Source: a virus
Strand: one strand, 5' to 3'
IMG/VR virus record: IMGVR_UViG_3300020215_000426
Location: 1-30,030 of that record
DNA length: 30,030 bases
Shown: positions 2,918 to 21,923 of the stretch, piece by piece
How the letters are laid out: each line of letters begins with the position of its first letter
How positions within the stretch are numbered: position 1 is the first letter of the stretch
Translations under genes and position numbers: made by a program
Notes under the pieces: generated by a model
Told to the model about the DNA's origin: nothing
The model's database searches: none
The model's input: the letters and a program-made list of their open reading frames with translations, nothing else

Positions 2918-3090
2918 CGCTCGCCCTCCATCTGCTCGACGATCTCCAGCACGGCGCGGCCTAGCTCGCCCTCGCGGTGCCACTTCCGCACGGCATCCAG
3001 CAGCCCCAGCCGCTCGCGATCCGCGCGGCGGCGCGCTTCGTCGGCGCGCCATTGCGGCCCCAGCGTCGGCGGCGGCAGCGGCGCGGTCAT
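2914..3090 (-). CDS. Small hypothetical protein, 58 aa
   Basis: The ATG at 3090 overlaps the methylase stop (3087-3089) in the ATGA pattern. The product begins MTAPLPPPTLGPQWRADEAR and continues as a charged, helical, Arg/Glu-rich peptide. The reading frame extends far upstream over the methylase, but that portion is antisense-type noise. No family recognised. Confidence 0.6.
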   Translation of the reverse strand: MTAPLPPPTLGPQWRADEARRRADRERLGLLDAVRKWHREGELGRAVLEIVEQMEGER

Positions 3091-4679
3091 GCGACCACCG
3101 CGAGCAGCGGCGCGTCGGCGGTCAGCCGCTCGCGGGCGATCTGCGCATACTCGGGGTTCAGCTCGCAGATCGTGGCGTGACGGCCGAGCCGGTCTGCCAC
3201 GAGCGCGGTTGTGCCGGCGCCGCCGAAGGGGTCCAGCACCATCTGCGGCACGGGCGCGTGCTCGGGGCAGTCGCAGGACGGCGACCAGCCGGTTGTGGTG
3301 ACGGTCGCCAGCATCCGCGGCATGTCGCCGTCCATGCGATCCGTGCAGCCGACCTTGGCCCGTCCGGTGTGCCGCGTCGGGTCTTTGAAGCGCTCGACTT
3401 CCGTCTGCCGCTGCCACGGTGCGCCGCAATGCTGGCACTGTCCGCGTTCGGATGTGCCGGCGCGGATGCAGCGCTCGGCGAGGTCCGGCGGCATGGTGGC
3501 GAAGTGCGCGCCGCTGAACGGCTGCGTCGCGATGGTCCACACGTTGCGCGCGTTGCGGCGCTCGCGCTCGTAGTTCACGGACAGGTCGCCGCCCTTGCCG
3601 TGGTGCCCGCTCTCCTGCAACGCGCGGACCTTCGGCGGCTGAACGCCTGTCGTATGCTGCCGACCGAAGTTCTCTGCATCCTCGGCAATCGCCTCTGCGT
3701 CGTAGAAATACCGCGCCTGCTTCGCCAGGAGGAACACCATCTCGTAAGCGCTGGTCGGCCGGTCGCGCACGCTCTCGGGCATGGGGTTCGGCTTCGCCCA
3801 CACGATGGCGGAGCGCAGATACCAGCCGTCCGCCTGGAGCGCGAAGGCGACCAGATGCGGGGTGCTGACGAGATCCTTCGCCTTGAGACGAAGGGACGGA
3901 ATGGCTAAATATGCCCAGCAGATTCCGCACCCCTGACAGGACACATCGCCACATGCCGACGCCGAAGGTTCCTTGCCCATCGTGTGGCAAGCCGATGAAG
4001 GCAACGTCTCGGACGTGTCGCCCATGCTCGGCGCCATACGAGCGGACCGCGGCGCATCGGGAGCACATGTCCGCGCTGACCGCGGGGAAGCCAAAGCCTC
4101 ACCTTCAAGGCCGCAAGCGTCCGGAGCATTCGCGCCAGATGCGGGAATGGTGGGACGAGCAGCGCCGCGAAGAGAAGCGCCAGGAAATGCTGCGGCGCAA
4201 TCCAGCGGCCCGGTATCACGGCCTGTCGGCTCGTGCGGCGGCTGCGCTGGTTGCGCAGGTTGGCCAATGCCAGCGGTGCAGCCATGACGGCAGCACGAGC
4301 CGTCTTGAGGTCCACCACATTGACCGCGACAAGCGGAACCAAGCGCCGGAGAATCTGCTGATCCTATGCCACGCGTGCCATATGCAGGACCACGCGCAGG
4401 CTGGGGAAACTGGCTGGCACGCATACCACCGGCGGCGTAGGACGAGCCCAGGTTAACCCAAGCGGTTCCATCGTCGCGGAGGACGCGGCGAACCTCCCGA
4501 AAGACGCTGACCAGCTTCGCGACATACTCCTCCGCTGTCGGCTCCAGCCCAATCTGGCCATCAACCCCGTAATCCCGAAGGAGATGGTAGGGCGGCGAGG
4601 TCACGCAGGTCTGGAACACGCCCGCCGGCAGGGCGCGCATCTGCTCCACGCAATCGCCGATCAGCACCCGCGTCGTCAT
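3087..4679 (-). CDS. Site-specific DNA methyltransferase (N4/N6 amino type) with a long central insert
   Basis: A 530-residue amino-methyltransferase that transfers a methyl group from SAM to adenine-N6 or cytosine-N4. The catalytic motif TSPPY is near residues 27-31. The SAM-binding motif DPFGGAGTTAL lies near the C-terminus, giving the beta-class order (catalytic motif first). The segments WVNLGSSYA (about 74-82) and LKAKDLVSTPHLVAFALQADGWYLR (about 265-289, quoted here only as a landmark) are normally separated by a short variable loop. Here about 180 residues rich in Ser, Pro, Ala, Gly and Cys intervene (about 84-262). That stretch is exactly opposite the plus-strand HNH gene at 3953-4456, yet the frame stays open. 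A Cys-rich CQGCGIC lies just before the conserved part resumes. The start overlaps the 49-aa gene upstream by 4 nt. Likely role: protection from host restriction or epigenetic regulation. Confidence 0.88.
   Translation of the reverse strand: MTTRVLIGDCVEQMRALPAGVFQTCVTSPPYHLLRDYGVDGQIGLEPTAEEYVAKLVSVFREVRRVLRDDGTAWVNLGSSYAAGGMRASQFPQPARGPAYGTRGIGSADSPALGSACRGQCGGPQDGSCCRHGCTAGIGQPAQPAQPPHEPTGRDTGPLDCAAAFPGASLRGAARPTIPASGANAPDACGLEGEALASPRSARTCAPDAPRSARMAPSMGDTSETLPSSACHTMGKEPSASACGDVSCQGCGICWAYLAIPSLRLKAKDLVSTPHLVAFALQADGWYLRSAIVWAKPNPMPESVRDRPTSAYEMVFLLAKQARYFYDAEAIAEDAENFGRQHTTGVQPPKVRALQESGHHGKGGDLSVNYERERRNARNVWTIATQPFSGAHFATMPPDLAERCIRAGTSERGQCQHCGAPWQRQTEVERFKDPTRHTGRAKVGCTDRMDGDMPRMLATVTTTGWSPSCDCPEHAPVPQMVLDPFGGAGTTALVADRLGRHATICELNPEYAQIARERLTADAPLLAVVA
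3953..4456 (+). CDS. HNH homing-type endonuclease with NUMOD3, nested antisense in the methylase
   Basis: A 167-residue protein on the plus strand, wholly inside the minus-strand methylase gene. Its start is ATG 3953 (MPTPKVPCPSCGKPM); an in-frame ATG at 3911 would add 14 residues. It has an N-terminal CxxC...CxxC zinc element (residues about 7-28) and a NUMOD3-like DNA-binding stretch (KPHLQGRKRPEHSRQMREWW, about 46-65). The HNH core has CQRC, LEVHHIDRD with the catalytic-type His pair, NLLILCHACH (about 107-148) and a basic tail. This is the architecture of phage homing endonucleases, which cut a cognate site lacking the insertion and spread by repair. Its 3' end overlaps codons for the conserved WVNLGSSY methylase motif. 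AGGACA 12 nt upstream may serve as ribosome-binding site. Both strands appear to encode protein. Confidence 0.82.
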   Translation: MPTPKVPCPSCGKPMKATSRTCRPCSAPYERTAAHREHMSALTAGKPKPHLQGRKRPEHSRQMREWWDEQRREEKRQEMLRRNPAARYHGLSARAAAALVAQVGQCQRCSHDGSTSRLEVHHIDRDKRNQAPENLLILCHACHMQDHAQAGETGWHAYHRRRRTSPG

Positions 4680-4944: not shown

Positions 4945-5762
4945 ACGCCACACATCCCTTCGCACTCGTTCTGGAATAGGTCGGGCTGGCCCCGCTCGCT
5001 CCACGTCGCGAGATCAACTTCGGCGAGAGGCACCATGCTGCGATGCATGAACTGCTCGCCCCGAATACCGCGCGACTGCCCGCCGGTGCGGATCAGCGCG
5101 TCTAGCCGACACGCTTCCGCCCATTCGTCCGGCGAGCCGTCGCGGATTTCCCGCCATTGCGCGTCGCTGTGAAAGGGGCAGCCGACACAGGAGGACTTTG
5201 GCGCCGACCAGCCCGCGCGCTCCAGCCAACGCAGGCAAGCTGCCCGCGACATGCCCGCGTCAATCAGCGGCCAGACGTTCCGCATATAGCGCACGCGCGC
5301 CGGCCGCATCCTCGCGGCCTCGTCTGTGGAGATACCGACCATGATCTCCGCGAAGCCTTGCACTCGGCCGCGCGGTGTGGCGCCCAACAGCTCGCGGACC
5401 TTCCGCGCCAGCGGTTCCAGCTTGTAGTGCGCCGTGCATTGGCGCCGCCCCATGCCCGCCGAGCCGTCCGGGTTCCGGAGATACCACGGCACCGCGGCGA
5501 TCCGGCCGGTTCGCCGCGACGCGCCACGCTCGATGTCATCCCGCAGGTTGCCCGCGCTCACCACGTGCACCGGGTAGGTCAGCGCCTCGCGCAGCCGCGC
5601 CAGGTGCTCATAGACCGCCCGCGGCTCCCAGCCCGTGTCCGCGAAGATGGCACAGTCCGGCGCCTCGATCTCGCCACGCGCCGCCATCAGCGCCAGCGTC
5701 GTGGACTGCACGCCCGCGCCGAGAGACAGGATGCGCAACCGCGCGCGCGTCTCGGCGGTCAT
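4941..5762 (-). CDS. PAPS-reductase-like (phosphoadenosine phosphosulfate reductase family) protein
   Basis: A 273-residue member of the adenine-nucleotide alpha-hydrolase/PAPS reductase fold. The nucleotide-binding loop is SLGAGVQSTTLALM (about 13-26), followed by FADTGWEP (about 40-47). A conserved GMGRRQCTAHYK lies at about 103-114. CVGCPFH (about 192-198) and the C-terminal CEGMCGV supply cysteines for a likely iron-sulfur cluster. Canonical CysH reduces PAPS to sulfite. This phage-type subgroup lacks proof of that activity and resembles sulfur-transfer enzymes such as DndC-type proteins. Its place directly before a DNA methylase suggests a part in nucleic-acid modification or host-defence evasion (inference). 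Alternatively it is an auxiliary sulfur-metabolism gene. Confidence 0.85.
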   Translation of the reverse strand: MTAETRARLRILSLGAGVQSTTLALMAARGEIEAPDCAIFADTGWEPRAVYEHLARLREALTYPVHVVSAGNLRDDIERGASRRTGRIAAVPWYLRNPDGSAGMGRRQCTAHYKLEPLARKVRELLGATPRGRVQGFAEIMVGISTDEAARMRPARVRYMRNVWPLIDAGMSRAACLRWLERAGWSAPKSSCVGCPFHSDAQWREIRDGSPDEWAEACRLDALIRTGGQSRGIRGEQFMHRSMVPLAEVDLATWSERGQPDLFQNECEGMCGV

Positions 5763-5926
5763 GGCGCGCTCTCTTCCCGCAGCATTTCGACCAACGCAGC
5801 GTCGAACCTCGCATCAAACTCGGCACGGGTGAGTTCCGGGGTGACCAGCTTCGTGAGTGCCCATAGCGGCTCGCGCTGCTGCGCAAATGCCTCCGCGGTG
5901 AAGTCGTCGTTGTCGTCCTCGCTCAC
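5759..5926 (-). CDS. Small acidic hypothetical protein, 55 aa
   Basis: The GTG start at 5926 overlaps the stop of the upstream 44-aa gene (GTGA), and its stop overlaps the PAPS-reductase-like ATG (5762). The peptide MSEDDNDDFTAEAFAQQREP continues as an acidic helical segment ending LVEMLREESAP. The frame remains open upstream but without protein character. No function known. Confidence 0.55.
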   Translation of the reverse strand: MSEDDNDDFTAEAFAQQREPLWALTKLVTPELTRAEFDARFDAALVEMLREESAP

Positions 5927-6057
5927 AGCACTTTCCCCCAGACGATGCCGGCGGCGAACGCGGCGGCGGTGTAGAGCCACAGGCGGAAGCGCAGGCGTGC
6001 CAGCGCGGCTTTGGCCTCGGCGAGCTGGATGGACGGCAGGAACAGGCGCGGGGTCAT
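5923..6057 (-). CDS. Small membrane protein, 44 aa
   Basis: ATG at 6057 gives MTPRLFLPSIQLAEAKAALA, then a basic stretch and the hydrophobic segment LWLYTAAAFAAGIVW (about 27-40), a single likely membrane helix. It is the first gene after the iteron array on the minus strand. Its stop overlaps the next GTG start. Recognition rests on size, hydrophobicity and coupling. Confidence 0.5.
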   Translation of the reverse strand: MTPRLFLPSIQLAEAKAALARLRFRLWLYTAAAFAAGIVWGKVL

Positions 6058-6088: not shown

Positions 6089-6362
6089 TGCATCGAAGTG
6101 TGCGCGTAGCGCTAGCGTAGCGCGCACCTTCGATGCATGGGTTCGAATGCGCCGAAGTAGGGCGCATCGAACCACGAATACCCGTAGGGTATTCCGCGCG
6201 CGCGCACGCGATATATGGGAGCGCGAAAAACCCTCGTGTTTTCAGAGGGTCATCGAAGATCGCAGCGCACCCAACTTCGATGCATTCCGATGCGCTCGTT
6301 CCCGCATCGAAGTGGCTTTTCGGGGCCATTTTCGATGCGCGCTTTGATGCAAGTTCGATGCG
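6089..6362. repeat. Iteron array, candidate replication origin
   Basis: Seven exact copies of the 8-mer GCATCGAA (either orientation) lie at 6090-6097, 6129-6136, 6164-6171, 6276-6283, 6304-6311, 6331-6338 and 6354-6361. Near copies lie at 6142-6150, 6250-6258, 6285-6293 and 6343-6350. The first two copies form the arms of a larger dyad (6089-6137) whose stem continues into GTGCGCG/CGCGCAC around TAGCGCTA. Other elements are the dyad ATACCC-GTA-GGGTAT (6178-6192), an alternating CG tract and an A/T-richer patch near 6205-6250. The array starts 3 bp after the primase-helicase stop codon. Iterons beside a replication gene are the usual mark of a theta origin, so an initiator-binding origin is the best reading. 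The initiator itself is not identified with certainty. Confidence 0.75.
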
Positions 6363-6364
6363 CC

Positions 6365-8653
6365 TCATGCCGCGCCCTCCTCCCATGTTGCCGCCGGGCG
6401 CCCGCTCGGCGCGCGCAGTCCGCTGCGCCGCACCCGGTCCTTGTTGCGGTATTCCTGCACCGTGAACCCCTGTGCGAGCATGGTGTTCAGCAGCGCCTTC
6501 TGAGCGGCGGGCTTTTCGATGCCATGGCGGGCCATCACCGCGGCGATGGACCGGGCCTGATCGGGCGCCAGGCGCGGGCTGTAGGGGCCGTGTGGCGTGC
6601 CCCGCTCGGCCTCCGCACAGATGAGCGCGACGACCTCAGGGTCCGGTCCTTTGGCCCGCGGTGGGGCGTTCGGGAACCACGGCTCAGCCGCTGCCACGTC
6701 CTCACCGTTGGCGAGCGGCCAGGCCACCATCTCGTGCCAGCGGGCTTCGCTCGCCGGGCTGTAGTTCGCCTTTGCGCTGTCCACACGAAAGAACGACCGC
6801 CGCCGGTCGCGCGGCACGCCGACCTCATCGGCCTCTTCCACCGTCATGGGCGTAACCGTCAGGACGATGCGGCAGGCGCCCACGATGGATGACGCTCCAC
6901 GGAGGCTCTCCGGATCGCCGGCCATGCCCCCCTTTCGCGTGTGATGCACCAGCACCACGGCGCAATCCCGGCGCTGCGCCAGCGCCCGCAGATGGGCGAT
7001 CACGAGCCGCAACGCCGTGTTGTCGTTCTCCCCGGCGGTGTGCAGCTCCACCAGCGGATCGAGCACAACCACGTCCGGCTGATGCTCCTCGATGAGGTCT
7101 TCCAGGTCGTGCCATGCGTCCGTGAAGCGGATCATCCCGGTGGCCTGGTCCTGCTCGATCAGAGTGCCAATGGCCTTGGGATGCGCGCGGATGACGCGCC
7201 CGGCGAAGTCCTGCGGCGTGCGCTCGAACTGCCGCAGCGCGGCTGAGTAGCGCCGCCGCTGCTCGTCCTCGTCATCCTCCATGTTGACCGTCAGCACCCG
7301 GTGGGGCTCGCGGCCGATCGGCTTGAAGTCGCCGTAGTCCATATTCAGCGCGAGAGCCGCCGTGCATGCGACGATGTAGCTCGACTTGCCAGCCGAGCCC
7401 GGACCGCCGATCAGGCTCACTGCGCCGCGCATGATGTATCCCGGGGCGATCCACTTGCGCTTCGGAATGGCGGCCTCCGCCCAGTCATCGGCGCACACCC
7501 GGAACGCCGAAGGGCGCTCCCGAGCGGACCGGGGCGGTTCGGGCTGGGCGTTGTGCGGTGGGGCCTCTGCCTCCCCCGCGTCGGGAAAAGGGTCTGGTTC
7601 CCAGCCTGGGTCTGGATCGGGCGGCGGTGGGTCCTCCGCCTGCCGGCGCCAGCCCGCGGCGCGGGCCAGGAAGAAGATGGTCCCGGCACCGATGCGGTTC
7701 GGCGGCGAGGCCGCGAAATGCGCCCAGCGGTCCAAGCACGCCTGTTCGTCATGCTTGCCGGACTTCGCGGACCAGTCAGCCCAAACGGCGCGTCCCTCCT
7801 CGCTGCCGCCGGTGGCACGCCACACGGCCATGCCCATCCGGTTCCAGTCGTCCCAGGACAGATCGGGATTCGCGACATGGGCCAAGGCCGCCGCCACGTC
7901 TGCCAGGGGCGCCTGCGGCTGGCCCGGGGTGCGACGTCCGGCAATGCCCGCCTGCATGAGGCCCGCGGCTTCCACGGCCTCCTGGAGCGCCGCGAGCGCG
8001 TCATCCAAATGGATTTCCGCCGCCTCGTTGCACTCCACAATGCGGGCGAGCCGCGGTCGGCGCTTCAGGTTCCACGAGCCCGGCCAGCGAAGCGGATGGA
8101 CGGGCGGCGCGGCGGAGCGGTCGGCGCCGACCAGGACTGCGGCCAGCCACCGTGCTTCGCGCAGCTTGGCATGATCCGCGTCAGTCCGTGTCGGTTCGGT
8201 CAGGCGCCAGTGGAAATGCACCTTGGGGTGCAGTTCGCCCGTGTCGGGGTCCAGCCATTCCGATCCGGACTGGACAACCAGCGTCGGCCTGCCGAGCAGC
8301 ATGTCGAGCTTGGCGCGGGCGCGGACAGGTGAGCCTTCGTCAAGTTCGACGGAGAGCGCTACGCCGTTGGCCAGGTGCGCCGCGCCGGCCTTGCGGGCAT
8401 CCCGGAAGGTGGCCACGGGGGGCGCGAACACGGCCGGCTTGTCGCCATTGGCGGCGCGCGCCGCTGCGGCCACAGCCCGCGCAATGATGCGATCCGGTGA
8501 GCCGTTGACGGGTACGCCCTCGATCAGGATCGGAGCCTGCCCGCGGTCGGATTGATGGAATGCGCGCAAGGACACGAAGGTGCCCTCGTCCGCATAGCGG
8601 AACAGCGCGCCGAAGAAGCGGGAGAGTTCGGCTGTGTCGGGGGCGAGGCTCAT
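6365..8653 (-). CDS. Primase-helicase (RepB-like primase, PriCT, RepA-like AAA ATPase)
   Basis: A 762-residue replication protein. Residues about 20-210 fit the RepB/archaeo-eukaryotic-type primase fold: an acidic catalytic stretch SVELDEG (101-107), KVHFHWRL (144-151) and the late motif HPLRWPGSWNLK (186-197). Residues about 250-335 resemble a primase C-terminal (PriCT) helical domain. A Pro/Glu-rich linker (about 338-380) follows. The C-terminal part is a RepA/RecA-fold helicase with Walker A GGPGSAGKSS (416-425), Walker B VVVLDPLVEL and VLVHHTRKGG (sensor-like). It probably primes and unwinds phage DNA at the adjacent iteron array. The start overlaps the HNH stop upstream by 4 nt. The overall arrangement resembles plasmid/phage primase-helicase fusions; I see no frameshift or missing core motif. 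Confidence 0.88.
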   Translation of the reverse strand: MSLAPDTAELSRFFGALFRYADEGTFVSLRAFHQSDRGQAPILIEGVPVNGSPDRIIARAVAAAARAANGDKPAVFAPPVATFRDARKAGAAHLANGVALSVELDEGSPVRARAKLDMLLGRPTLVVQSGSEWLDPDTGELHPKVHFHWRLTEPTRTDADHAKLREARWLAAVLVGADRSAAPPVHPLRWPGSWNLKRRPRLARIVECNEAAEIHLDDALAALQEAVEAAGLMQAGIAGRRTPGQPQAPLADVAAALAHVANPDLSWDDWNRMGMAVWRATGGSEEGRAVWADWSAKSGKHDEQACLDRWAHFAASPPNRIGAGTIFFLARAAGWRRQAEDPPPPDPDPGWEPDPFPDAGEAEAPPHNAQPEPPRSARERPSAFRVCADDWAEAAIPKRKWIAPGYIMRGAVSLIGGPGSAGKSSYIVACTAALALNMDYGDFKPIGREPHRVLTVNMEDDEDEQRRRYSAALRQFERTPQDFAGRVIRAHPKAIGTLIEQDQATGMIRFTDAWHDLEDLIEEHQPDVVVLDPLVELHTAGENDNTALRLVIAHLRALAQRRDCAVVLVHHTRKGGMAGDPESLRGASSIVGACRIVLTVTPMTVEEADEVGVPRDRRRSFFRVDSAKANYSPASEARWHEMVAWPLANGEDVAAAEPWFPNAPPRAKGPDPEVVALICAEAERGTPHGPYSPRLAPDQARSIAAVMARHGIEKPAAQKALLNTMLAQGFTVQEYRNKDRVRRSGLRAPSGRPAATWEEGAA

Positions 8654-9279
8654 TCAACCCTCGCCGGCAGATGGGCGTCATGCCATTCGTCGTCCGCGGC
8701 GTGCAGCCGCTCATGGCAAGGGCGGCAGACGGCGCGCATTTCCCACAGGGGAGGGAACAGCCCGAAGGCATAGGTCAGGTGGTGCGCCTGCTCGGCCGGG
8801 GCCTTGCCGCACGCCTCACACTTGAAGCCAGCCCGAGCCAGCACGGCTTGCCGGAACCGGCGCCATTCGGGCGTGTTCCGCACTTCACGGTATTCTTCGC
8901 GCTTCTGATCGGGAGTGATGATACGAGCCCGCGCAGCCGCGTGCTCTGCCTCCCACCGCTCCTGCACGGCCTTCCACCATGCCTCCCGCTTGTCGCCGTC
9001 CCACTCGGGGAAGTCGCTGTAGAACGGGAAGTCATGTCGGCTTAGGGAGCCGGTCAGGGATTTGCCGCACTGGTCGCACTGCAAGGCGACCGACAGGGCG
9101 CCGATGGAGTTCCGGCGCTTGCGCATGGACGCCTGCGTGCCGCCGCAATTGCAGCCGCCCTTCAGTGCGTCGCGCACCCGTTGGCGTGCTGTATCGGAGG
9201 AACAGCGGGGGGCGCCCGTGTCGTTGAAGTCCTGCTCAACGGGCAGAACCATCGGGACCGGGATGGCGCGCTCGCTCAC
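8650..9279 (-). CDS. HNH endonuclease with N-terminal zinc ribbon
   Basis: A 209-residue protein. Cysteine pairs CNCGG (about 43-47) and CDQCG (about 68-72) suggest a zinc-ribbon-like N-terminal domain. A middle helical linker with EWDGDKREAWWKAVQERWEA follows. The C-terminal HNH core has CEACG (about 155), EQAHHLTYAFG with the catalytic-type His pair, and AVCRPCHERLHAAD. HNH proteins of this form sit in the replication modules of many proteobacterial phages; possible roles are recombination-intermediate or foreign-DNA cleavage. Start and stop each overlap neighbours by 4 nt, placing it firmly in the operon between VRR-NUC and primase-helicase. Confidence 0.85.
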   Translation of the reverse strand: MSERAIPVPMVLPVEQDFNDTGAPRCSSDTARQRVRDALKGGCNCGGTQASMRKRRNSIGALSVALQCDQCGKSLTGSLSRHDFPFYSDFPEWDGDKREAWWKAVQERWEAEHAAARARIITPDQKREEYREVRNTPEWRRFRQAVLARAGFKCEACGKAPAEQAHHLTYAFGLFPPLWEMRAVCRPCHERLHAADDEWHDAHLPARVE

Positions 9280-9707
9280 CGCACCACCCCCGCCGCGCGG
9301 AAGACGGCCTGTGCATCGTCGAGCGACCGCACCACGGCGACGCGATGCCCGATGGCGCGCAGCCGCTCGTGGAACTCGATCTGTGCCGCGGTGACGACGC
9401 CGCGCGGCGCCTTGGCCTCCAGGAAGATCACCCCGCCGCCGGGGAGCGCAACGGTGAGGTCCGGTGCGCCCTTGGCAGCCCCGGCCGCGCGGCGCTTGCC
9501 CATCATCGCCCAGCCCTCGCGCTTGTTGTCAGCGCGATAGGGGACTTCGTTCGGGCTGCCCCAGACCACGGCGCCTGGCACGGCGAGCATCAGCCAGTGG
9601 CGGATGGCCTTGACGACGGCGATCTCCGGATTGCCGCGCTTGGCCTTCCGCGACGAGAGGATCACGTCGTCCTCCTCGCCAAGCAGGGTTTCCGCCGGCG
9701 CGCTCAC
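9276..9707 (-). CDS. VRR-NUC domain nuclease
   Basis: A 143-residue single-domain nuclease of the PD-(D/E)xK superfamily. The core is GAPDLTVALPGGGVIFLEAK (about 80-99), giving the D...E-x-K metal site, followed by TAAQIEFHERLRAIGHRVAVV (the Q-containing helix and last strand). VRR-NUC proteins such as phage counterparts of FAN1-type nucleases cut branched or flapped DNA; here it probably processes replication or recombination intermediates. It overlaps both neighbours by 4 nt (ATGA). Residues 20-45 (KAKRGNPEIAVVKAIRHWL) form the usual leading helix. Confidence 0.87.
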   Translation of the reverse strand: MSAPAETLLGEEDDVILSSRKAKRGNPEIAVVKAIRHWLMLAVPGAVVWGSPNEVPYRADNKREGWAMMGKRRAAGAAKGAPDLTVALPGGGVIFLEAKAPRGVVTAAQIEFHERLRAIGHRVAVVRSLDDAQAVFRAAGVVR

Positions 9708-9904
9708 TGGATGCGCACTCCCGCCGCGGTGCGCAGGTAGTGCAGCTTGACGGCCACGGCGTTGGCGCGGCGGATCGGCGGCCCGGGCATCGCATTCAGT
9801 TCGCGCATCAGTTCGGCCAGCCGCCCGTTGTGCAGCCGCGTGCCGATGTGGCGCCGCAGCAGCGCGAGGCGGTCTTCCGTCCAGGGCTGGTGACGGGCGC
9901 TCAT
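9704..9904 (-). CDS. Single-domain GcrA/Myb-like DNA-binding protein
   Basis: A 66-residue protein that is essentially one copy of the repeat found four times in the next gene upstream: PWTEDRLALLRRHIG (7-21), LAELMRELNAMPGPPIRRAN (29-48), then AVAVKLHYL. The shared pattern is W-T-x-x-R-x-x-L, a helix ending L-N-x-x-P-G, and a last helix with A-x-x-L-x-L. This resembles the helix-turn-helix of alphaproteobacterial GcrA and of SANT/Myb folds. It starts with ATG 9904 overlapping the stop of the four-repeat gene by 4 nt, so both are made together. It could pair with, compete with, or regulate the larger protein (inference). Confidence 0.68.
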   Translation of the reverse strand: MSARHQPWTEDRLALLRRHIGTRLHNGRLAELMRELNAMPGPPIRRANAVAVKLHYLRTAAGVRIQ

Positions 9905-11415
9905 GCGCGGCGTTCCTCGCGGACTATCGCCGCGAGGCGGTATATCTCGCGATGCGGCAGTCGCGTGTGCATCTGCACCACGCTCGGATCGGTGCCTCGG
10001 CGGAGCATCGCCAGCGCCTTTTCCGTGCGCGCCTCGACGGAGGACGGCCGGCTTGGATCGTAGGGCGGCGGCTCGTCATCGGCCGGCGGTGCGGGCGGCG
10101 GCGGTTCGCGAGGCGGCAGCGGACGCGTCGCAGGTGCCGCCACAACCTTCGCCGCCGCCGCCGTCCGCCGCGGCAGCTTCAGCGCGCCGACGGCATAGGC
10201 CGACACCTGATGGCCCGGGATGGGATCGCCCGGGAGGGCGTTGAGCATCTCGGCGATCCGCGCGCCGGGCGTGCCCTTGGGCCACTCTGCCCGGATCAGA
10301 TCACGTCGGGCTTCCGTCCACTTCTCCGGCTTGGCTGACGGCGGATTGGCCGGGCGCCGCCGCACATGCGGCCGGGGCGACTTGCGCGGCTTGAACTGGG
10401 TGCCGACTGCCGGGCCAGGCGGACGGCTCAGGCCGAGCACCCAGGCGCGGGCCTTGAGCGCCTTGACCGTGATCTCGCGGTTGCCGAGCGCCGTGATCCG
10501 GCGCGCCAGGTCGGCGAGGTCCACCGTCTTGATCGGATAGTCCGTGCGGAGGAGCTCGTCGCGCTCGGCGCTCCAAAGCCGCGGCGCGCGCTGCTGTTCC
10601 TGCTGTCGCGCCCGGACGTGACGCATCCCCTCCTCGGACCGCTTGAGGCCGAGCTTGCGCGCCTGGACCGAGACTGCCTCGGCGGAGCCGATGTCCATCT
10701 CGCCGGGGATGGCGTTCAGCGCCGTGAGAATGTCCTCTCGCGGATCGCCGCGCTCATAGGCCGCGCGGAGATAGGCCAGGCGCTCGGGGTTCCAGACCAC
10801 GCGCTTTTCGCGTCGGCCGAGGCGCAGTTGCGCGTGGGCGTAGCCGAGCACCTGATGCGTCGTGATCGGCTCGCCGGGCAGGCTGTTCAGCGCCTCGGCG
10901 ATTTCGGCCGCGGAGACGTCGGAGGACCAGAGCCGCGTCAGTTCCGCAATGCGCTCGTCAGTCCACTTGTTCAGGTTTCGGTTCGGTAGGTGCTGCCGGG
11001 GGGCGGCGGCGGCCTCAAGGATGGCGAGGCGGGCCTCGACGCTGGCCAGCCGCTGCATGATGGCGGCGACGGCCTCCTCCTGGAAAAGAGCCGCCGAGGC
11101 GTGAGCCCCGGCGGCAGTTGGGGAGGAAGCACGGCCCGCGGCGGCACCGCCGGCGGACGCCGGCGATCCTGTTCCGGCCCGATCCAGCAGGCCGAGGAAG
11201 TCGTCCCGCGCCACCATGACGACGGCGGGGCCTTGCGCGACCAGCGCGCGGTATTCGTCGAGGGGCGTGGAGACGCCATGCGGAACGGATGCGTCCGCGA
11301 GCGCCCAGCGGGCGTCACGCTCTCGCGATTCCGTCGTCGCGCCGCAACCGGCGGTCTGATCCATGGTTTCCGCGGTGTCGGCGGCAACCGACACCCCCCG
11401 TTTGTTTGCACACAC
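9901..11415 (-). CDS. Protein with four tandem GcrA/Myb-like DNA-binding repeats
   Basis: A 504-residue protein (GTG 11415; in-frame GTG 11394 and ATG 11364 are alternative starts). The N-terminal 140 residues are Ala-rich, with a short coiled coil (EAVAAIMQRLASVEARLAIL). Four related units follow at about 150-201, 207-257, 280-331 and 365-416. Each has an opening W-x-x-E/A-R, a middle helix with IAEALN or similar, a P-G or G-N turn and a last helix ending L-x-L. This is the layout of the GcrA/SANT-type helix-turn-helix. A Pro-rich linker (420-455) leads to a C-terminal helix-turn-helix-like segment (465-500). It lies in the early operon after the CII-like and membrane-protein genes. Repeated DNA-binding units suggest recognition of an array of sites or DNA bridging. 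Function is unknown; GcrA kinship is judged from pattern only. Confidence 0.72.
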   Translation of the reverse strand: MCANKRGVSVAADTAETMDQTAGCGATTESRERDARWALADASVPHGVSTPLDEYRALVAQGPAVVMVARDDFLGLLDRAGTGSPASAGGAAAGRASSPTAAGAHASAALFQEEAVAAIMQRLASVEARLAILEAAAAPRQHLPNRNLNKWTDERIAELTRLWSSDVSAAEIAEALNSLPGEPITTHQVLGYAHAQLRLGRREKRVVWNPERLAYLRAAYERGDPREDILTALNAIPGEMDIGSAEAVSVQARKLGLKRSEEGMRHVRARQQEQQRAPRLWSAERDELLRTDYPIKTVDLADLARRITALGNREITVKALKARAWVLGLSRPPGPAVGTQFKPRKSPRPHVRRRPANPPSAKPEKWTEARRDLIRAEWPKGTPGARIAEMLNALPGDPIPGHQVSAYAVGALKLPRRTAAAAKVVAAPATRPLPPREPPPPAPPADDEPPPYDPSRPSSVEARTEKALAMLRRGTDPSVVQMHTRLPHREIYRLAAIVREERRA

Positions 11416-11421
11416 AAGCCA

Positions 11422-11451
11422 AAGCCCCGTCGGGACCTCCCGGCGGGGCTT
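11422..11451 (-). terminator. Strong hairpin between the membrane-protein gene and the repeat-protein gene
   Basis: AAGCCCCGTCGGGA (11422-11435) pairs with TCCCGGCGGGGCTT (11438-11451): a 14-bp stem with one G-U-type pair and a 2-nt loop. It lies 4 bp after the stop at 11456 and directly before the first possible start of the four-repeat gene. No long T-run follows on the minus strand. It may be a terminator that early transcription must read through, or a translational barrier. Confidence 0.6.
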
Positions 11452-11455
11452 GTCG

Positions 11456-11671
11456 TTAGGCGATCAGGACGTTGACCCAGCTCCATGCCAGGACGGCCAG
11501 CGCCAACAGCACGACCCAGAGAACGCTGCTGGCGGCGAGCACGAGGAGGACAGTCGCGGCGCTTGGCAACGAGCCGGACGAAAAGGTTTCATCGGGCAGC
11601 GGCGGCGCTGAGCGCGCAGCGTATTCAGACTTCTGTGACCGAACGGGCGGAAATGGTGCGATGACGCTCAT
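11456..11671 (-). CDS. Small membrane protein, 71 aa
   Basis: From ATG 11671 the protein is 71 residues: a hydrophilic N-terminus (MSVIAPFPPVRSQKSEYAAR), then a Ser-rich linker, then one long hydrophobic segment from about residue 36 to the end (for example TVLLVLAASSVLWVVLLALA). A single C-terminal membrane anchor is likely. It lies between the CII-like regulator and the hairpin at 11422-11451. Function unknown; superinfection exclusion is one possibility. Confidence 0.6.
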   Translation of the reverse strand: MSVIAPFPPVRSQKSEYAARSAPPLPDETFSSGSLPSAATVLLVLAASSVLWVVLLALAVLAWSWVNVLIA

Positions 11672-11688
11672 GCGGACGCTCTCCCCTG

Positions 11689-12174
11689 CTACCGCGCGAC
11701 GACCAGCCGCGCGGCGGTTGCACACACGCCAGGACCGCGCAGCCGGGCCATCGCGGCACAGGCTGCGCGCTGTAGCTCGTCGAGTTCCGTCAGCAGCCCT
11801 TGCCGCTCGGCCTCAGTGATCTCGCCGTCCTCGATGGCTTCCGCCCAGCGCGTGGCCAGTTCCCCCGCCTCGCGGAACACGGCTGCGATGGCGCGCGCGT
11901 CGGACCCGCCGCCCTCGCCGATGGGCACGAGCACATGGCCCGAGAGCCGCGCGAGCTGCGCGGTGACCAGCGGCGCATGGGCGACGCGTTCGAGGTCCGC
12001 GAGCACGTCCACCGGGACGGAGGTCTCGGCGTGGTGCGGTGACGCGTAGTCCGCGAGCGCGGACTTCTTCACGCGGGTGATGGTGCCCGCGGCCTCGACG
12101 CCGCCGATGCGGAGCAGGAGCGCGGAGGTCGCGGTCTTGAGCGCGGCGACTTCCTGCGGGGTTACGGCGCGCAT
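11689..12174 (-). CDS. CII-like phage regulatory protein (putative)
   Basis: A 161-residue protein starting at ATG 12174, preceded by GGAGGT at the right spacing. Residues 3-75 read as a helix-turn-helix: a first helix (TPQEVAALKTATSALLLRIG), then GVEAAGTITRVKKSALADYAS, then a VPVDVLADLERVA helix and the phrase LARLSGHVLVPI. This is the pattern of the Phage_CP76/CII regulator family. The C-terminal half is helical (EAGELATRWAEAIEDGEITE). Its place directly after Cro in the leftward transcript mirrors lambda cro-cII. It probably influences the lysogeny decision. Family assignment is by pattern, so moderate. Confidence 0.6.
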   Translation of the reverse strand: MRAVTPQEVAALKTATSALLLRIGGVEAAGTITRVKKSALADYASPHHAETSVPVDVLADLERVAHAPLVTAQLARLSGHVLVPIGEGGGSDARAIAAVFREAGELATRWAEAIEDGEITEAERQGLLTELDELQRAACAAMARLRGPGVCATAARLVVAR

Positions 12175-12189
12175 GGCGCACCTCCGCAA

Positions 12190-12431
12190 CGGAACGCTTC
12201 CGCTTGGCCGCCGCTGGGGGCTGGGCCTAGTGCTGGCCGGGCAAGCGCGGAGGCGGTGATGGAGGAGCGGGCCGGCAGCGGCGGGATGCGACTGCCGGCC
12301 CGCGGCGCCGGCCAGGCTGCCGAGGGGAGGGTTGATGCCTGGGCGGCGATTGGGGTGGGCCGGCGCGAACCGTTGACGGCGCGAACCGGCCCGGCCTCGA
12401 TGGCGGGCGGACCAGCCAAGGAGGCAAGGCG
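12190..12431. other. Intergenic region with hairpin and short direct repeats upstream of the lipoprotein gene
   Basis: No gene is seen. A perfect 12-bp inverted repeat, GCGGGCCGGCAG (12267-12278) and CTGCCGGCCCGC (12292-12303), can form a strong hairpin with a 13-nt loop. Further right, GGCGCGAACCG occurs twice (12362-12372 and 12378-12388), 16 bp apart and flanked by GGGCCGG/CCGGCCC. The direct repeats sit 44-70 bp before the lipoprotein start and could be a regulator-binding site. AAGGAGG before 12432 is the lipoprotein ribosome-binding site. Confidence 0.45.
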
Positions 12432-12755
12432 ATGAAGCGATGGATCGTGGCCGCGGCGATGGCGGCGCTGGGCGGGTGCATGGATGACATCCCGCTCACG
12501 GTCCTGCCGCATCCGAGCGACCCGGAGCGTCTGCTGGCCCAGGTGCCCGCGACTGATAACGTGACGCTCATGGACAGCGCCGAGCGGCGCGGTGAACTGA
12601 TCGTCGGGCGGCTCCGGCGCCAGTGCGGCGAGCCCGTGATCGAGGAGACGCGCGTCACGCCGGGCGGAACCGTGGGGTTCTTCCGCGCACCGACGCGCCT
12701 CTACACCATGACCGTGCGCTGCCCCGGCGGGGCCACGCGGCCGGTAGAGCGGTGA
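12432..12755 (+). CDS. Small lipoprotein (possible lysogenic-conversion gene)
   Basis: A 107-residue protein with a typical signal peptide: MKRW, a hydrophobic core VAAAMAALGG and a lipobox ending in Cys16 (ALGGC). The mature part contains two further cysteines (around QCGE and VRCPGG) that could form a disulfide, and a beta-rich look (TPGGTVGFFRAPTRLYTMTV). AAGGAGG lies 7 nt before the ATG. The gene points rightward between Cro and the CII-like gene, against the flow of the lytic operon, so it probably has its own promoter and may be expressed in the lysogen. Phage lipoproteins placed like this often alter the host surface or block superinfection; here that is inference. Confidence 0.75.
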   Translation: MKRWIVAAAMAALGGCMDDIPLTVLPHPSDPERLLAQVPATDNVTLMDSAERRGELIVGRLRRQCGEPVIEETRVTPGGTVGFFRAPTRLYTMTVRCPGGATRPVER

Positions 12756-12772
12756 GAGGTGCGCCGGTGACA

Positions 12773-12970
12773 TCACTTCGCGCGCTCCGGCTCGGGGAAC
12801 AGGTCGGGGCGCAGCCTGTGCGGCGGCAGCCCAGTGACCCGCGAGACGGCGTGGACGCGCGCTGGGGGAACCTGACGCCATTTCACGACCGCGGCGCGCG
12901 TGATGCCGAGAGCCTTGGCGGTCTTCGCCATCAGCCCGCGGGTTGCCCGGATTTGGTCCATTGCCTCCAT
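12773..12970 (-). CDS. Cro-like repressor (YdaS/Cro-type HTH)
   Basis: A 65-residue protein that is almost only a helix-turn-helix: RATRGLMAKTAKALGITRAA (8-27), VVKWRQVPPARVHAVSRVTG (28-47) and the ending LPPHRLRPDLFPEPERA. The KTAKALGITRAAVVKW segment and the VTGLPPHRLRPDLFP ending are characteristic of YdaS/Cro-type phage regulators. It is divergent from the repressor gene, and the 17-bp operator 12979-12995 lies 9 bp before its start. It is the first gene of the leftward lytic operon. The ATG at 12970 is taken; ATG 12961 is an alternative. Confidence 0.82.
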   Translation of the reverse strand: MEAMDQIRATRGLMAKTAKALGITRAAVVKWRQVPPARVHAVSRVTGLPPHRLRPDLFPEPERAK

Positions 12971-12978
12971 GCGGGGAT

Positions 12979-12995
12979 GCTTACCATGCGTAAGC
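12979..12995. promoter_or_regulatory. 17-bp repressor operator (Cro side)
   Basis: GCTTACCATGCGTAAGC is a perfect 6-bp inverted repeat with a 5-bp centre. The same half-sites with the same spacing occur at 13715-13731. Extra half-sites GTAAGC (13026-13031) and GCTTAC (13041-13046) lie between this operator and the repressor start. A possible minus-strand -10 TATTTT (13015-13010) would place it just downstream of the Cro transcription start. Confidence 0.8.
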
Positions 12996-13036
12996 GCGGG
13001 CTGTCCAGCAAAATACTGCCCGCGAGTAAGCGTCAG

Positions 13037-13426
13037 ATGTGCTTACCTAAAGTGGTGGAAATCAAAGACCTAATACGAATCGAGCGGCAGCGTCGGGGTT
13101 GGTCGCAGCGGGCGCTTGCGCGCGCGCTCGGCGTATCGAACGGGCTAGTGGCGCAATGGGAGACCGGCCTGAAGCGGCCCGGGTTCGCCCTGTTCGTTGA
13201 CATTTGCAACGTGTTCGGGCTTTCGGTCCGCGGCTTCACTGGACCGGACGGCCCCTATCAGGGGGAGATCGTGGACGACCCCGACGAGATGACGCTGCTG
13301 ACGCTGTGGCGCGCGTTGCCGCCGGAGGACCGCCCAACGCTCCTGCGCCTCCTGGCTAAGTCGCCCCCCGGGCGCGTAATCGGCGAGGGTCGTGAGGCGC
13401 AGCCGTCGCGGAAGGGCAATGACTAG
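13037..13426 (+). CDS. XRE-family repressor without a LexA-type protease domain
   Basis: From ATG 13037 (GTG 13052 and ATG 12986 are alternatives; the latter lies inside the operator) the protein is 129 residues. The HTH_XRE domain covers about 9-66: IKDLIRIERQRRGWSQRALA, then RALGVSNGLVAQWETGLKRP with the recognition helix, then FVDICNVFGLSVRGF. The short C-terminal part has one conserved-looking helix pair (DEMTLLTLWRALPPEDRPTL), probably for dimerisation. There is no S24/LexA-like peptidase domain, so RecA-stimulated self-cleavage is not expected. It lies between two matching operators and opposite Cro, so it is the best candidate for the lysogeny repressor. Its mRNA may have little or no leader. 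Confidence 0.8.
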   Translation: MCLPKVVEIKDLIRIERQRRGWSQRALARALGVSNGLVAQWETGLKRPGFALFVDICNVFGLSVRGFTGPDGPYQGEIVDDPDEMTLLTLWRALPPEDRPTLLRLLAKSPPGRVIGEGREAQPSRKGND

Positions 13427-18194: not shown

Positions 18195-18510
18195 GCGCGT
18201 GCGGGCCGCTGAGGTGGCGCGGATGACCAGCCTTTCCGTCCGGAAGGTGTTGGAGCACGCGGCGGCTGGCACGTTCCCGGCAATGAAGGTCGGCGGCGTG
18301 TGGCTGTTCGACCCCGACGCCATCGAGGCGTGGCTCAGACGAGAGGAGGCCCGACAGTGGCGCGAAAGGGCGAAGGCGGGAACATCTACCTCCGCGGCGA
18401 CACCTACTGGGGACGTGTTAAGATTGCCGGCCGCGAGTATCGCAGCACGCTTAGAACGTCTGATCCCCGCGAGGCGAAAAAGCGCCTCGGGCCGTGGGTC
18501 AAGAAGCTAA
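18187..18510 (+). CDS. Excisionase-like HTH (MerR/AlpA-type) protein
   Basis: A 107-residue protein whose first 52 residues are a typical excisionase/HTH_17 domain: RAAEVARMTSLSVRKVLEHA, then GTFPAMKVGGVWLFDPDAIE, then AWLRREEA. The C-terminal half (from about residue 57) is Ser/Ala/Arg-rich and read in another frame over the first 154 nt of the integrase gene. The short domain alone would be enough for DNA bending and for directing excision. GGAGG lies upstream of ATG 18187. Its position directly before the integrase supports Xis function; a regulatory AlpA-like role is also possible. Confidence 0.75.
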   Translation: MAERVRAAEVARMTSLSVRKVLEHAAAGTFPAMKVGGVWLFDPDAIEAWLRREEARQWRERAKAGTSTSAATPTGDVLRLPAASIAARLERLIPARRKSASGRGSRS

Positions 18511-19427
18511 AGGAAGAGGCGGTCACAGGCGCGCCCACGCCCACCTTCGAAGAGGCGGTCGTGAAGTGGGGCGAGGAGGTGCTGCCCGGGGCCGTGAAGC
18601 CCGCTGTTGCCAAGCGATACCTGTCCAGCATCGGGCAGATGTTGGACATGTTCGGGCCGCTCCCGATGAACCGCCTGACGGCGCGTGACGTGGCCGGCTA
18701 TGTGTCGAGCCGCAGCGGCAAGGTTTCCAACGCTACCATTAAGCGCGACCTCACGGCCCTCTCGCGGCTGCTGGCGGCTTGCGTGGCGTGGGGCTGGCGC
18801 GCGGACAATCCAGCGCTGGCCTATGACCGTTCCATGGTTCGCGAGCGCCGCGACCCGATCCGGCCGCCGGACCCGGAGGCCGTGCGGGCGCTGATCGAGG
18901 CCGCGCCGGAAGGCATGGCCGCCGTGCTGGCGCTGCTGCACGAGACGGGGATGCGCGAGGCAGAGGCCGTGAACCTGGCCGGCGAGGAGGTTGATTGGGA
19001 GCGGGGCCAGATTCGGCTGCTGAAGACGAAGACCAGCCGCCCGCGCGTGCTGGCATGGCGCACCATCGGGGGGGATGCGGGGCCGGTCCTGCTGCGCGTG
19101 AAGCGCGCACATGGGCCGCTGTTCCGGGCCGACACTGGGCGCCCCTATCGGAACTTCAGCAGCAACGTCCGGCGCGTCATGGCTGCCGCCGAGGCTGCAC
19201 ACCGGAAGGCCGGCAAGCCTTTCCGCCGGTTCCGGGTCCACGACTTGCGCCACGGCTTCGCCATCCGTTGGCTGAAGGCTGGCGGCGATATCTACGGCCT
19301 GAGCCGGCACCTGGGGCACAGTAGTATTAAAACCACTGAGCTATATTTGGGTTATCTGACCGAGGAGGAACGGCAGAGTGTCCAGCGATCTCACGAGGCT
19401 TCTGGCTCGGTTGAAGCCCGAAGGTGA
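18357..19427 (+). CDS. Tyrosine site-specific integrase
   Basis: GTG 18357 is chosen because GAGGAGG sits 9 nt upstream, giving 356 residues. The N-terminal part (about 5-50; GNIYLRGDTYWGRVKIAGRE) is the arm-binding domain, and residues about 62-160 form the core-binding SAM-like domain. The catalytic domain has Arg200 (HETGMREAE), HDLRH with His295 and Arg298, HLGHSS with His321, and nucleophile Tyr330 (TELYLGY). All expected residues are present. It catalyses recombination between the phage core and the host tRNA-Ser gene; the tRNA 3' fragment lies 455 bp downstream. The last 50 nt overlap the HNH_3 gene. Confidence 0.93.
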   Translation: MARKGEGGNIYLRGDTYWGRVKIAGREYRSTLRTSDPREAKKRLGPWVKKLKEEAVTGAPTPTFEEAVVKWGEEVLPGAVKPAVAKRYLSSIGQMLDMFGPLPMNRLTARDVAGYVSSRSGKVSNATIKRDLTALSRLLAACVAWGWRADNPALAYDRSMVRERRDPIRPPDPEAVRALIEAAPEGMAAVLALLHETGMREAEAVNLAGEEVDWERGQIRLLKTKTSRPRVLAWRTIGGDAGPVLLRVKRAHGPLFRADTGRPYRNFSSNVRRVMAAAEAAHRKAGKPFRRFRVHDLRHGFAIRWLKAGGDIYGLSRHLGHSSIKTTELYLGYLTEEERQSVQRSHEASGSVEARR

Positions 19428-19878
19428 CTGCCTTGTCTGGCCTCTGTCCAGGAACCGCGGAGGCTATGGGCAAGTGAAATGGAATGGGAAGGTGCAGCTC
19501 GCGCATCGGCTGGCCTTCCGCCTGGCGAACGGGCCGCTGCCGCCGGGGCTGCTTGTCTGCCATCGCTGCGACAACCGCGCCTGCGGTAACCCGGCGCACC
19601 TGTTCGCTGGGACGCACCGCGACAACAACCGGGATATGTTCGCCAAGGGGCGGGGGCACCGCCTCGACGGCTCGCACATCCGGGGGCTGAAGAACCCGAA
19701 CGGGAAGCTTTCGCAAGGCGCTCTTGCAGAGGCGCGGGCGCTGCGCCGCTCAGGCCACAGCCTTTCGGCCGTCGCGGCCCGCTTCGGAGTGACGAAGCAG
19801 GCCATCGCCTACCACTTCCGGTCGGGGGCACAAACGGGGGCACAGACCCCGCCGAAAACCCCAAGCGCGAAGCGGTAG
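19378..19878 (+). CDS. HNH_3-type endonuclease with C-terminal HTH
   Basis: A 166-residue nuclease starting at GTG 19378, with GAGGAGGAAC upstream and inside the integrase end. Residues about 15-85 match HNH_3 homing-type enzymes: CLVWPLSRNRGGYGQVKWNG, LAHRLAFRLANGPLPPG, then LVCHRCDNRACGNPAHLFAG and THRDNNRDM. A NUMOD-like stretch with GLKNPNGKLSQGALAEAR follows, and a C-terminal helix-turn-helix (LSAVAARFGVTKQAIAYHF). It is a freestanding homing-type nuclease between integrase and the attachment core. It could promote its own spread or that of the integration module. It ends 4 bp before the tRNA-derived sequence. Confidence 0.85.
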   Translation: MSSDLTRLLARLKPEGDCLVWPLSRNRGGYGQVKWNGKVQLAHRLAFRLANGPLPPGLLVCHRCDNRACGNPAHLFAGTHRDNNRDMFAKGRGHRLDGSHIRGLKNPNGKLSQGALAEARALRRSGHSLSAVAARFGVTKQAIAYHFRSGAQTGAQTPPKTPSAKR

Positions 19879-19882
19879 GAAA

Positions 19883-19948
19883 TGGCGGAGGGGATGGGAT
19901 TCGAACCCACGAGACGGGTTGACCCCGTCTAACGGTTTAGCAAACCGC
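19883..19948 (-). other. Attachment core: 3' part of tRNA-Ser(GCU)
   Basis: Read on the minus strand, this is the anticodon arm to CCA end of a serine tRNA. The anticodon stem is GCGGT/ACCGT with loop TTGCTAA (anticodon GCU); the long variable arm is AGACGGG/CCCGTCT. The T-arm is GTGGG-TTCGAAT-CCCAT, followed by acceptor strand CCCCTCC, discriminator G and CCA. The D-arm and 5' acceptor strand are absent, so it is not a functional tRNA gene. Tyrosine integrases commonly use tRNA 3' ends, and the integrase gene is adjacent. Phage genes continue on both sides, so this is attP or a tandem-prophage junction. Confidence 0.88.
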
Positions 19949-21093: not shown

Positions 21094-21279
21094 TTATCGG
21101 CCATCGCGCCGCTCCATAAGACCGAGGATCAGCAAAGCCCCATTCAGTTCCGCCCGCGCGGTGGCGTAGTGGCCGAGCGTCACAGACTTTCGGGCGGCGT
21201 CCAGTTGAATGTCGAAATCCTCCCGGTCCAGTTGCCGCTCACGAAGCACCTTATCGAGTAGCGTCGTTTCCTTCGTCAT
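21094..21279 (-). CDS. Hypothetical protein, 61 aa
   Basis: ATG 21279 overlaps the serine-recombinase stop by 4 nt. The peptide MTKETTLLDKVLRERQLDRE continues into DFDIQLDAARKSVTLGHYAT and a final helix. It is helical and soluble. Coupling suggests it works with, or is regulated like, the recombinase. No family recognised. Confidence 0.6.
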   Translation of the reverse strand: MTKETTLLDKVLRERQLDREDFDIQLDAARKSVTLGHYATARAELNGALLILGLMERRDGR

Positions 21280-21869
21280 TCCTCTGCTCCTGAAAGGCGC
21301 ATGGCCCACGGCCCGCGCATCTGCGTGTAGAGGTGGCTGCGGCTGATCTTCCACTTCTCGGAGACCGCCACCACCGTCATCTCGCGAAGGTCTGCGATGA
21401 TCTGAGCCTCGTTCTCCGGCTTGATCTTCCAGTTACGCCGACCGCCCACGCGGCCTTCCTTCTTCGCCGCTTCCAGCCCAGCTTTCGTGCGCTCCCGGAT
21501 CAGGTCACGCTCGAACTCGGCGAAGGCTCCGATCATGTGAAACATCAGCCGGCCGGTCGGGGTGCCGGTGTCAATCGCCGTGGTCAGGATGCGAAGGTGG
21601 GCGCGCTTCTTCTCGATCCGGTCAGCGATCAACTTCAACTCCCAGAGGGAGCGGGCCAGACGGTCGAGCTTCCACGCGACCAGCGTGTCACCCTCGCGCA
21701 GCGCCTTGATCGCGGCCTCTAGGCCGGGGCGCTTCTTCCCCGCGCCAGAGAGCTTGTCGGAGTAGATGCGGCGGACGGCGACGCCGGCTTCGCGCAGGGC
21801 TTCGGTCTGTAGCCGAAGCTCCTGGTCCTCCGTCGAGACACGCGCGTAGCCGATCAGCACATTGGTCAT
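21276..21869 (-). CDS. Serine site-specific recombinase (resolvase/invertase family)
   Basis: From ATG 21869 the protein has 197 residues, the size of a small resolvase/invertase. The catalytic Ser12 lies in IGYARVSTEDQELRLQ. LVAWKLDRLARSLWEL (about 64-79), GRLMFHMIGAFAEFERDLIR (about 105-124) and the E-helix/arm are all in place. The C-terminal HTH is IIADLREMTVVAVSEKWKIS followed by RSHLY. It may invert or resolve a DNA segment of the phage, for example in tail or host-range genes. No paired crossover site was proved; the repeat at 22873-22969 is a candidate. It sits 1.3 kb from attP and has a different chemistry from the integrase. Confidence 0.9.
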   Translation of the reverse strand: MTNVLIGYARVSTEDQELRLQTEALREAGVAVRRIYSDKLSGAGKKRPGLEAAIKALREGDTLVAWKLDRLARSLWELKLIADRIEKKRAHLRILTTAIDTGTPTGRLMFHMIGAFAEFERDLIRERTKAGLEAAKKEGRVGGRRNWKIKPENEAQIIADLREMTVVAVSEKWKISRSHLYTQMRGPWAMRLSGAEE

Positions 21870-21923
21870 GGCTGTTGGTCGCACATCGTCAAACGAGGGT
21901 CAACAGAAAATCTCACAAGTTGC

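Follow-up and report, generated by a model that had tools for sequence, protein, structure and literature searches.

A tandem-unit phage protein with four GcrA-DBD/Myb-like units, most likely a virus-specific gene regulator in the early operon of a temperate phage

Phage record and gene layout

The window analyzed here is the entire 30,030-base IMG/VR record IMGVR_UViG_3300020215_000426, which is probably a fragment of a phage genome. It carries the gene set of a temperate tailed phage, with an integrase (18300 to 19427), a repressor, and homologs of Cro and CII, and it also encodes a RecE-type exonuclease, a primase-helicase, and a central tail fiber J. A gene coding for a protein of 504 amino acids, referred to here as the tandem gene, is placed between the CII gene and the nuclease and primase-helicase genes, in the following layout.

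11689 to 12189, minus strand: CII-like transcriptional activator gene, upstream of the tandem gene (phrog_101, 1.3e-16)
11456 to 11725, minus strand: possible small membrane-protein ORF in the interval between CII and the tandem gene (ORF list)
11422 to 11451, minus strand: GC-rich hairpin and adjoining TTT, a short distance upstream of the tandem gene (-23.2 kcal/mol, z -2.8)
9901 to 11415, minus strand: tandem-unit protein gene, 504 aa (ORF, GTG as predicted start)
9704 to 9904, minus strand: 66-aa single-unit protein gene (ATG start; pI 11.9)
9276 to 9707, minus strand: VRR-NUC nuclease gene, downstream of the tandem gene (profile match)
8650 to 9279, minus strand: HNH endonuclease gene, downstream (profile match)
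6365 to 8653, minus strand: primase-helicase gene (PriCT_2 and AAA_25 domain matches)
3087 to 4679, minus strand: N6/N4 DNA methylase gene, further downstream (domain matches; below the CcrM model cutoff)

The hairpin could possibly act as a terminator or attenuator and so set CII apart from the remaining operon. A scan of the operon for the sigma70 promoter consensus gave no match, although host promoters may differ, and the Rfam search gave none either. A tRNA-Ser-like fragment (19878 to 19948) adjoins the integrase, is 87.5% identical to Komagataeibacter phage phiKM1, and is probably the attachment site. From this fragment and the avoidance of GANTC described below, the host is likely alphaproteobacterial; the relatives were drawn from viral records, and host range is only inferred. 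Elsewhere in the window, the ORF at 21276 to 21884 contains MTNVLIGYARVSTEDQELRLQ and reads like a serine resolvase/invertase.

The repeated units

An earlier note on this DNA had described four mutually homologous units in the 504-aa protein and a fifth copy in a 66-aa gene overlapping the tandem gene by 4 nt. Both descriptions hold, as a hidden Markov model (HMM) trained exclusively on units from other phages, which avoids circularity, recovered all of them: unit 1 at residues 151 to 194 (39.2 bits), unit 2 at 207 to 259 (47.4 bits), unit 3 at 280 to 332 (22.7 bits, i-E 1.6e-6), unit 4 at 366 to 415 (39.4 bits), and the unit of the 66-aa protein at its residues 7 to 58 (43.6 bits), with the coordinates of the overlap exact. 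Shuffled and reversed decoys gave a best E of only 0.035 (related core profile). The units are located as follows.

10810 to 10965, minus strand: unit 1, residues 151 to 202, GcrA-DBD/Myb-like trihelical, the sole unit over the PF07750 cutoff
10639 to 10797, minus strand: unit 2, residues 207 to 259 (HMM and structure model)
10420 to 10578, minus strand: unit 3, residues 280 to 332, degenerate (HMM and structure model)
10165 to 10320, minus strand: unit 4, residues 366 to 417, sister of unit 1 (46% identical)

Pairwise comparison against shuffled sequences gave p values of about 0.0005 to 0.001 for the similarity among units 1, 2, and 4 and the 66-aa unit, while that of unit 3 to the others is weak or borderline (p 0.002 to 0.03). 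The consensus given in the earlier note, W-T-x-x-R...LN-x-x-PG, is not literally true of all four, as unit 2 starts with WNPER and the degenerate unit 3 reads WSAER...ITALGNREI, without the LN-x-x-PG core. By a profile independent of the window, the 504-aa protein carries at least one W-x-x-x-R...LN-x-[LIM]-PG...helix-3 unit of the kind that defines the "LNxLPG" tandem-unit family. A tree of the 54-residue units grouped unit 1 with unit 4 (0.88), and support elsewhere was poor except for some close pairs. Unit 3 has a basic linker on either side. Basic residues are sparse in helix 3 of units 1 and 4, and units 1 and 2 come close to neutral, which means that some units may not bind DNA.

Predicted fold

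The GcrA-DBD/Myb fold proposed in the earlier note is supported for the units. The unit model (AlphaFold2, 35-row alignment, pLDDT 76) has helices at 11 to 22, 27 to 35, and 44 to 53, and its best PDB match is the DNA-binding domain (DBD) of Caulobacter GcrA (5yiu; Foldseek probability 1.00, TMt 0.76, rmsd 1.3, 38% identity), with Myb repeats next. The VIA Z scores were 7.3 for the GcrA DBD and 6.4 to 6.6 for c-Myb R2R3, with an rmsd of about 2 over 46 to 47 residues; a VIA Z below 8 shows fold only, and the unit structures used are predicted models. In VIA, unit 1 also matches the N-terminal helix-turn-helix (HTH) domains of small terminases, an identity that we rejected on gene context.

The full-length AlphaFold2 model has trihelical domains near residues 150 to 203, 207 to 254, 281 to 327, 366 to 412, and 460 to 503, with block pLDDT values mostly of 83 to 97. 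By these predictions, the protein holds five trihelical domains of the DNA-binding type on one chain, namely, four GcrA-DBD/Myb-like units and a C-terminal HTH. This last domain and an N-terminal helix were absent from the earlier note.

9904 to 10041, minus strand: C-terminal predicted helix-turn-helix, residues about 459 to 504 (AlphaFold2, pLDDT about 96)
11005 to 11115, minus strand: N-terminal long helix, residues 101 to 137 (AlphaFold2)

In the model, the N-terminal helix could possibly serve as a coiled-coil or dimerization segment. C termini similar to the HTH of the window are found in the related loci L012, L016, L020, L024, and L036, and direct reading reveals a second type ("...VN..R...GLPPF.L") in L009, L015, L019, L021, L027, and L034. 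Searched with Foldseek, the whole model had no significant PDB match, and it matched the uncharacterized viral protein A0A6J5SV53 at 2e-6.

Relationship to GcrA

Unit 1 scores above the PF07750 cutoff (41.6 versus 26.9 bits), in a match that covers only positions 2 to 51 of the 155 in the profile. Compared with the DBDs of phage GcrAs, the units align with an hhalign probability of 96.6% (E 5e-10), their LPGxPI loop falling in a gap of the alignment. The GcrA DBD is a relative of the unit family, and the 504-aa protein, though similar to one part of GcrA, is not itself a GcrA. With GcrA of Caulobacter, the cell-cycle sigma70 cofactor (PF07750; 5yiu, 5yiv, 7ye1), it shares the DBD fold and the W-T-x-E-R...helix-2 sequence, unit 1 being about 38 to 41% identical over the DBD. 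It differs in its four copies plus C-terminal HTH, in the 5- to 7-residue LPGxPI insertion before helix 3, and in length (504 versus 173 aa). Four helix-3 residues are invariant in phage GcrAs (N33, V35, G37, and R41), and unit 1 retains two of them by direct reading, the V and the G, lacking the N and the R. The sigma-interacting domain (SID), which occupies residues 108 to 173 of GcrA (PMC7403470), is also absent: its profile, which recovers phage GcrAs although six of these were used to build it, found none among all window ORFs (best E, 3.5). Likewise, the 504-aa protein scored 21.9 bits with the GcrA equivalog model (NF050816), far from the cutoff of 280.

True GcrA homologs are encoded by phages of the phiCbK type, e.g., phiCbK gp222 (PMC3556154), and phage GcrA homologs are also mentioned in PMC9437464. 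These phage GcrAs (phiCbK gp222 and those of L002, L006, L019, L021, L026, and L027) are phage borne and have the same DBD fold as the units, but they consist of one DBD and a Cys/His SID-like C terminus, and they are encoded by a separate gene where they occur together with a tandem-unit protein, a gene that lies directly downstream of the tandem gene in L021 and L027. A separate near-full-length GcrA match was found in 8 of 18 tandem-unit records and a C-terminal-half match in 1 more, versus 0 of 17 other phage records. This co-occurrence is suggestive only, as the counts are not independent (L016, L024, and L030 are near relatives, and so are L021 and L027) and the controls were unmatched for host.

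GANTC sites and the DNA methylase

The earlier note had placed a DNA methylase in the operon of the tandem gene, and it does lie downstream on the same strand. It was rejected as a CcrM ortholog (72.9 versus 830 bits by the CcrM model). GANTC itself is scarce, with 13 sites in the 30-kb record versus 113 expected from dinucleotide shuffles, and 7 in coding sequence versus 31 +/- 4.6 in synonymous-codon shuffles, a depletion of about 4-fold. Coding sequence shows no such depletion of GATC or of most control motifs, CTNAG and GGCC being moderately low. The depletion of GANTC recurs in L002, L034, L036, L009, and L021, whereas L011 and L016 do not show it. Between 11332 and 13076, an interval that takes in the upstream sequence of the tandem gene as well as that of CII and cro, there is no GANTC at all. 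Because of this depletion and local absence, a GANTC-methylation switch of the early operon by the 504-aa protein is unlikely, and the near absence of the motif from the record makes binding of m6A-GANTC by the tandem-unit protein less likely too.

These data bear on the idea advanced in the earlier note that the protein imitates GcrA, as a sigma70 cofactor reading methylated GANTC with its reader domains multiplied. In its favor are the likeness of unit 1 to the GcrA DBD in fold and sequence, the likely alphaproteobacterial host, and the true GcrA homologs of phiCbK-type phages. However, the missing SID, the equivalog score, the loss of two of the four helix-3 residues, the LPGxPI insertion, the lack of GANTC around the early promoter region at 11332 to 13076, and the encoding of true GcrA by a separate gene in relatives run counter to methylation-dependent sigma70 control, and we regard this explanation as very improbable.

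Relatives of the tandem-unit protein

A tblastn search with the whole 504-aa protein found no match in annotated phages or plasmids, and a related-locus search with the whole protein or two units found none in viral or genome contigs. Relatives were gathered instead by a custom degenerate DNA pattern scan of viral contigs; because W-T-x-x-R and LN-x-x-PG were part of the collecting pattern, conservation at those positions is biased by ascertainment, while other conserved positions and extra units lacking the pattern are free of this bias. A second scan added just two loci, one of which, L041, is a single weak match. In total, 18 viral records carry units, one unit in 6 of them, two in 9, and three in 3. 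Homologs of the kind sought by the earlier note therefore exist, but none has the same repeat number, the four units of the window being the most. The dN/dS values of five close pairs (0.29 to 0.40) indicate that the family is under purifying selection where sequence comparison allows a test. We found no description of it in the open literature, most subscription papers lying outside the reach of the search.

Of the readable neighborhoods, the majority belong to early operons and place the gene next to CII, helicase/primase, or Mu-type transposition genes. L021 and L027 share the order CII, tandem gene, full GcrA, small ORF, GapR homolog, ATPase, and DnaB, with CII directly upstream of the tandem gene in a 4-nt overlap. 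The tandem gene of L034 overlaps DnaB by 4 nt, and primase or helicase genes are found downstream of it in L011, L009, and L015. L036 and L039 are Mu-like, the gene preceding the transposase in the former and lying near a MuB-type transposition gene in the latter, and L018 carries its own replication initiator plus a tandem-unit protein. The homologs of GapR, a nucleoid protein, are at L021:7855-8445 and L027:3539-4141, close to the phage GcrA; the one in L021 scores 73 bits, below the equivalog cutoff, and has a weak Rmf-like match at its C terminus. In L018, AGCGAGCCG repeats with a regular 36-bp spacing (5649 to 6052) probably represent a coding repeat.

The Mu-like loci, together with the many DNA-binding domains, their basic linkers, and the small-terminase HTH matches of unit 1, could point to a DNA-organizing or end-protecting protein, such as a phage chromatin, transposition, or packaging accessory. 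We consider this quite unlikely: no terminase neighbor was recognized beside the gene in the examined loci, the position is that of an early operon, and the single-unit members would be poorly suited to bridging.

Iteron-like array and replication

Among the 8-mers of the record, TTCGATGC shows the strongest clustering, with 7 exact copies in 272 bp, the largest cluster in 40 shuffles being 4.

6090 to 6361, no strand assigned: iteron-like array of 7 exact TTCGATGC and 3 one-mismatch copies in both orientations (8-mer clustering)

The array sits directly after the primase-helicase gene, about 3.5 kb from the tandem gene, and is a putative replication origin or operator array, likely an origin. 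Arrays of other motifs follow primase/helicase genes in L002, L003, L009, and L011, and that of L030 adjoins a 635-aa ORF that aligns with the helicases of these loci. No tie between the tandem gene and the iteron motif emerged: L011 and L030 share GGTGTGAA, yet their helicases and their tandem proteins are both about 29% identical.

With such an array at hand, the 504-aa protein could be an origin-binding initiator like lambda O, which would bind iterons through several domains and recruit the primase-helicase. It occupies a gene slot like that of O, after CII and before the replication helicase genes, and the gene orders of the window, of L021 and L027, and of L034 all agree with this. The iterons of lambda sit inside the O gene, whereas the array of the window comes after the primase-helicase gene, and iterons sought inside its tandem gene were not found. 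In two relatives, a 14-bp palindrome, GGTGAAATTTCACC, does lie inside the tandem-unit gene, with three copies at L015:633-925 and two at L034:1323-1390 (core 12 bp identical). However, the peptide encoded by all of these copies is almost identical (GEISP/CEISP), and the palindrome may therefore reflect a coding repeat. No tandem-unit protein was found in the fetched records of L002 and L003, which show the same layout of an array after the primase-helicase; the array is thus better assigned to the primase-helicase, which makes an initiator less probable. Moreover, the protein is present in the Mu-like L036 and L039, which do not need a theta origin, and in L018, which encodes an initiator of its own. 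Altogether, an initiator role seems fairly unlikely, though it is the strongest of the competing explanations.

A proposed multivalent regulator of the early operon

The explanation that we favor, with moderate confidence, gives the 504-aa protein the role of a multivalent regulator that binds DNA sequence specifically and acts on the early operon of a temperate phage; its computed basis is domain content, fold prediction, context, and conservation. Five DNA-binding-type domains on one chain and the location between CII and the nuclease and primase-helicase genes are in line with it, and the profile phrog_323, "transcriptional regulator, D5-like," matches the protein at E 1.3e-11 (residues 150 to 392 on profile positions 7 to 175 of 319). 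Position alone cannot separate regulation from replication, since early operons carry replication genes too. Nevertheless, a regulator fits the DnaB/primase phages, the Mu-like L036 and L039, and L018, while an obligatory origin initiator does not.

Such a regulator would use its units to grip several neighboring half-sites at once and could thereby bind clustered operator sites tightly and cooperatively, setting the level or timing of the early lytic genes. The 66-aa single-unit protein might compete for the same sites or extend them. Because there is no recognizable sigma-contacting domain, any effect on RNA polymerase would be exerted via DNA occupancy or another surface. A broader scenario, which we deem unlikely, would join these elements: phages of GcrA/CcrM bacteria would have multiplied the GcrA-type reader domain into multisite DNA readers with between one and four units; working alongside a true phage GcrA, these would assemble on phage-specific repeat arrays and couple early transcription with replication timing.

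Comparison with known systems and significance

A parallel in design is D5 of phage T5 (phrog_323), likewise a phage early protein of several HTH domains, which is described in the T5 record as DNA binding and required for replication and late transcription, with shutoff also noted. The direct hhalign comparison of D5 with the units is insignificant (10.7%), the number and type of HTH domains differ, D5 has no LN-x-LPG units, and there was no A3 match in the T5 record. The eukaryotic c-Myb R2R3 also consists of tandem trihelical repeats of similar fold (the VIA Z scores given above), but its W pattern, loop, and organisms differ from those of the units, which makes it a likeness of fold and not of membership.

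Most likely, then, the 504-aa protein serves as a virus-specific regulator of genes. It belongs to a phage protein family, undescribed in the literature searched, whose building block is the DNA-binding half of GcrA, a conserved cell-cycle regulator of alphaproteobacteria. The tandem-unit family lacks the RNA-polymerase-contacting half of GcrA and multiplies the DNA-binding one, so that phage genes annotated as "GcrA" fall into two distinct kinds. The early-operon regulator, the neighboring phage GcrA, and the iteron array are testable candidates.
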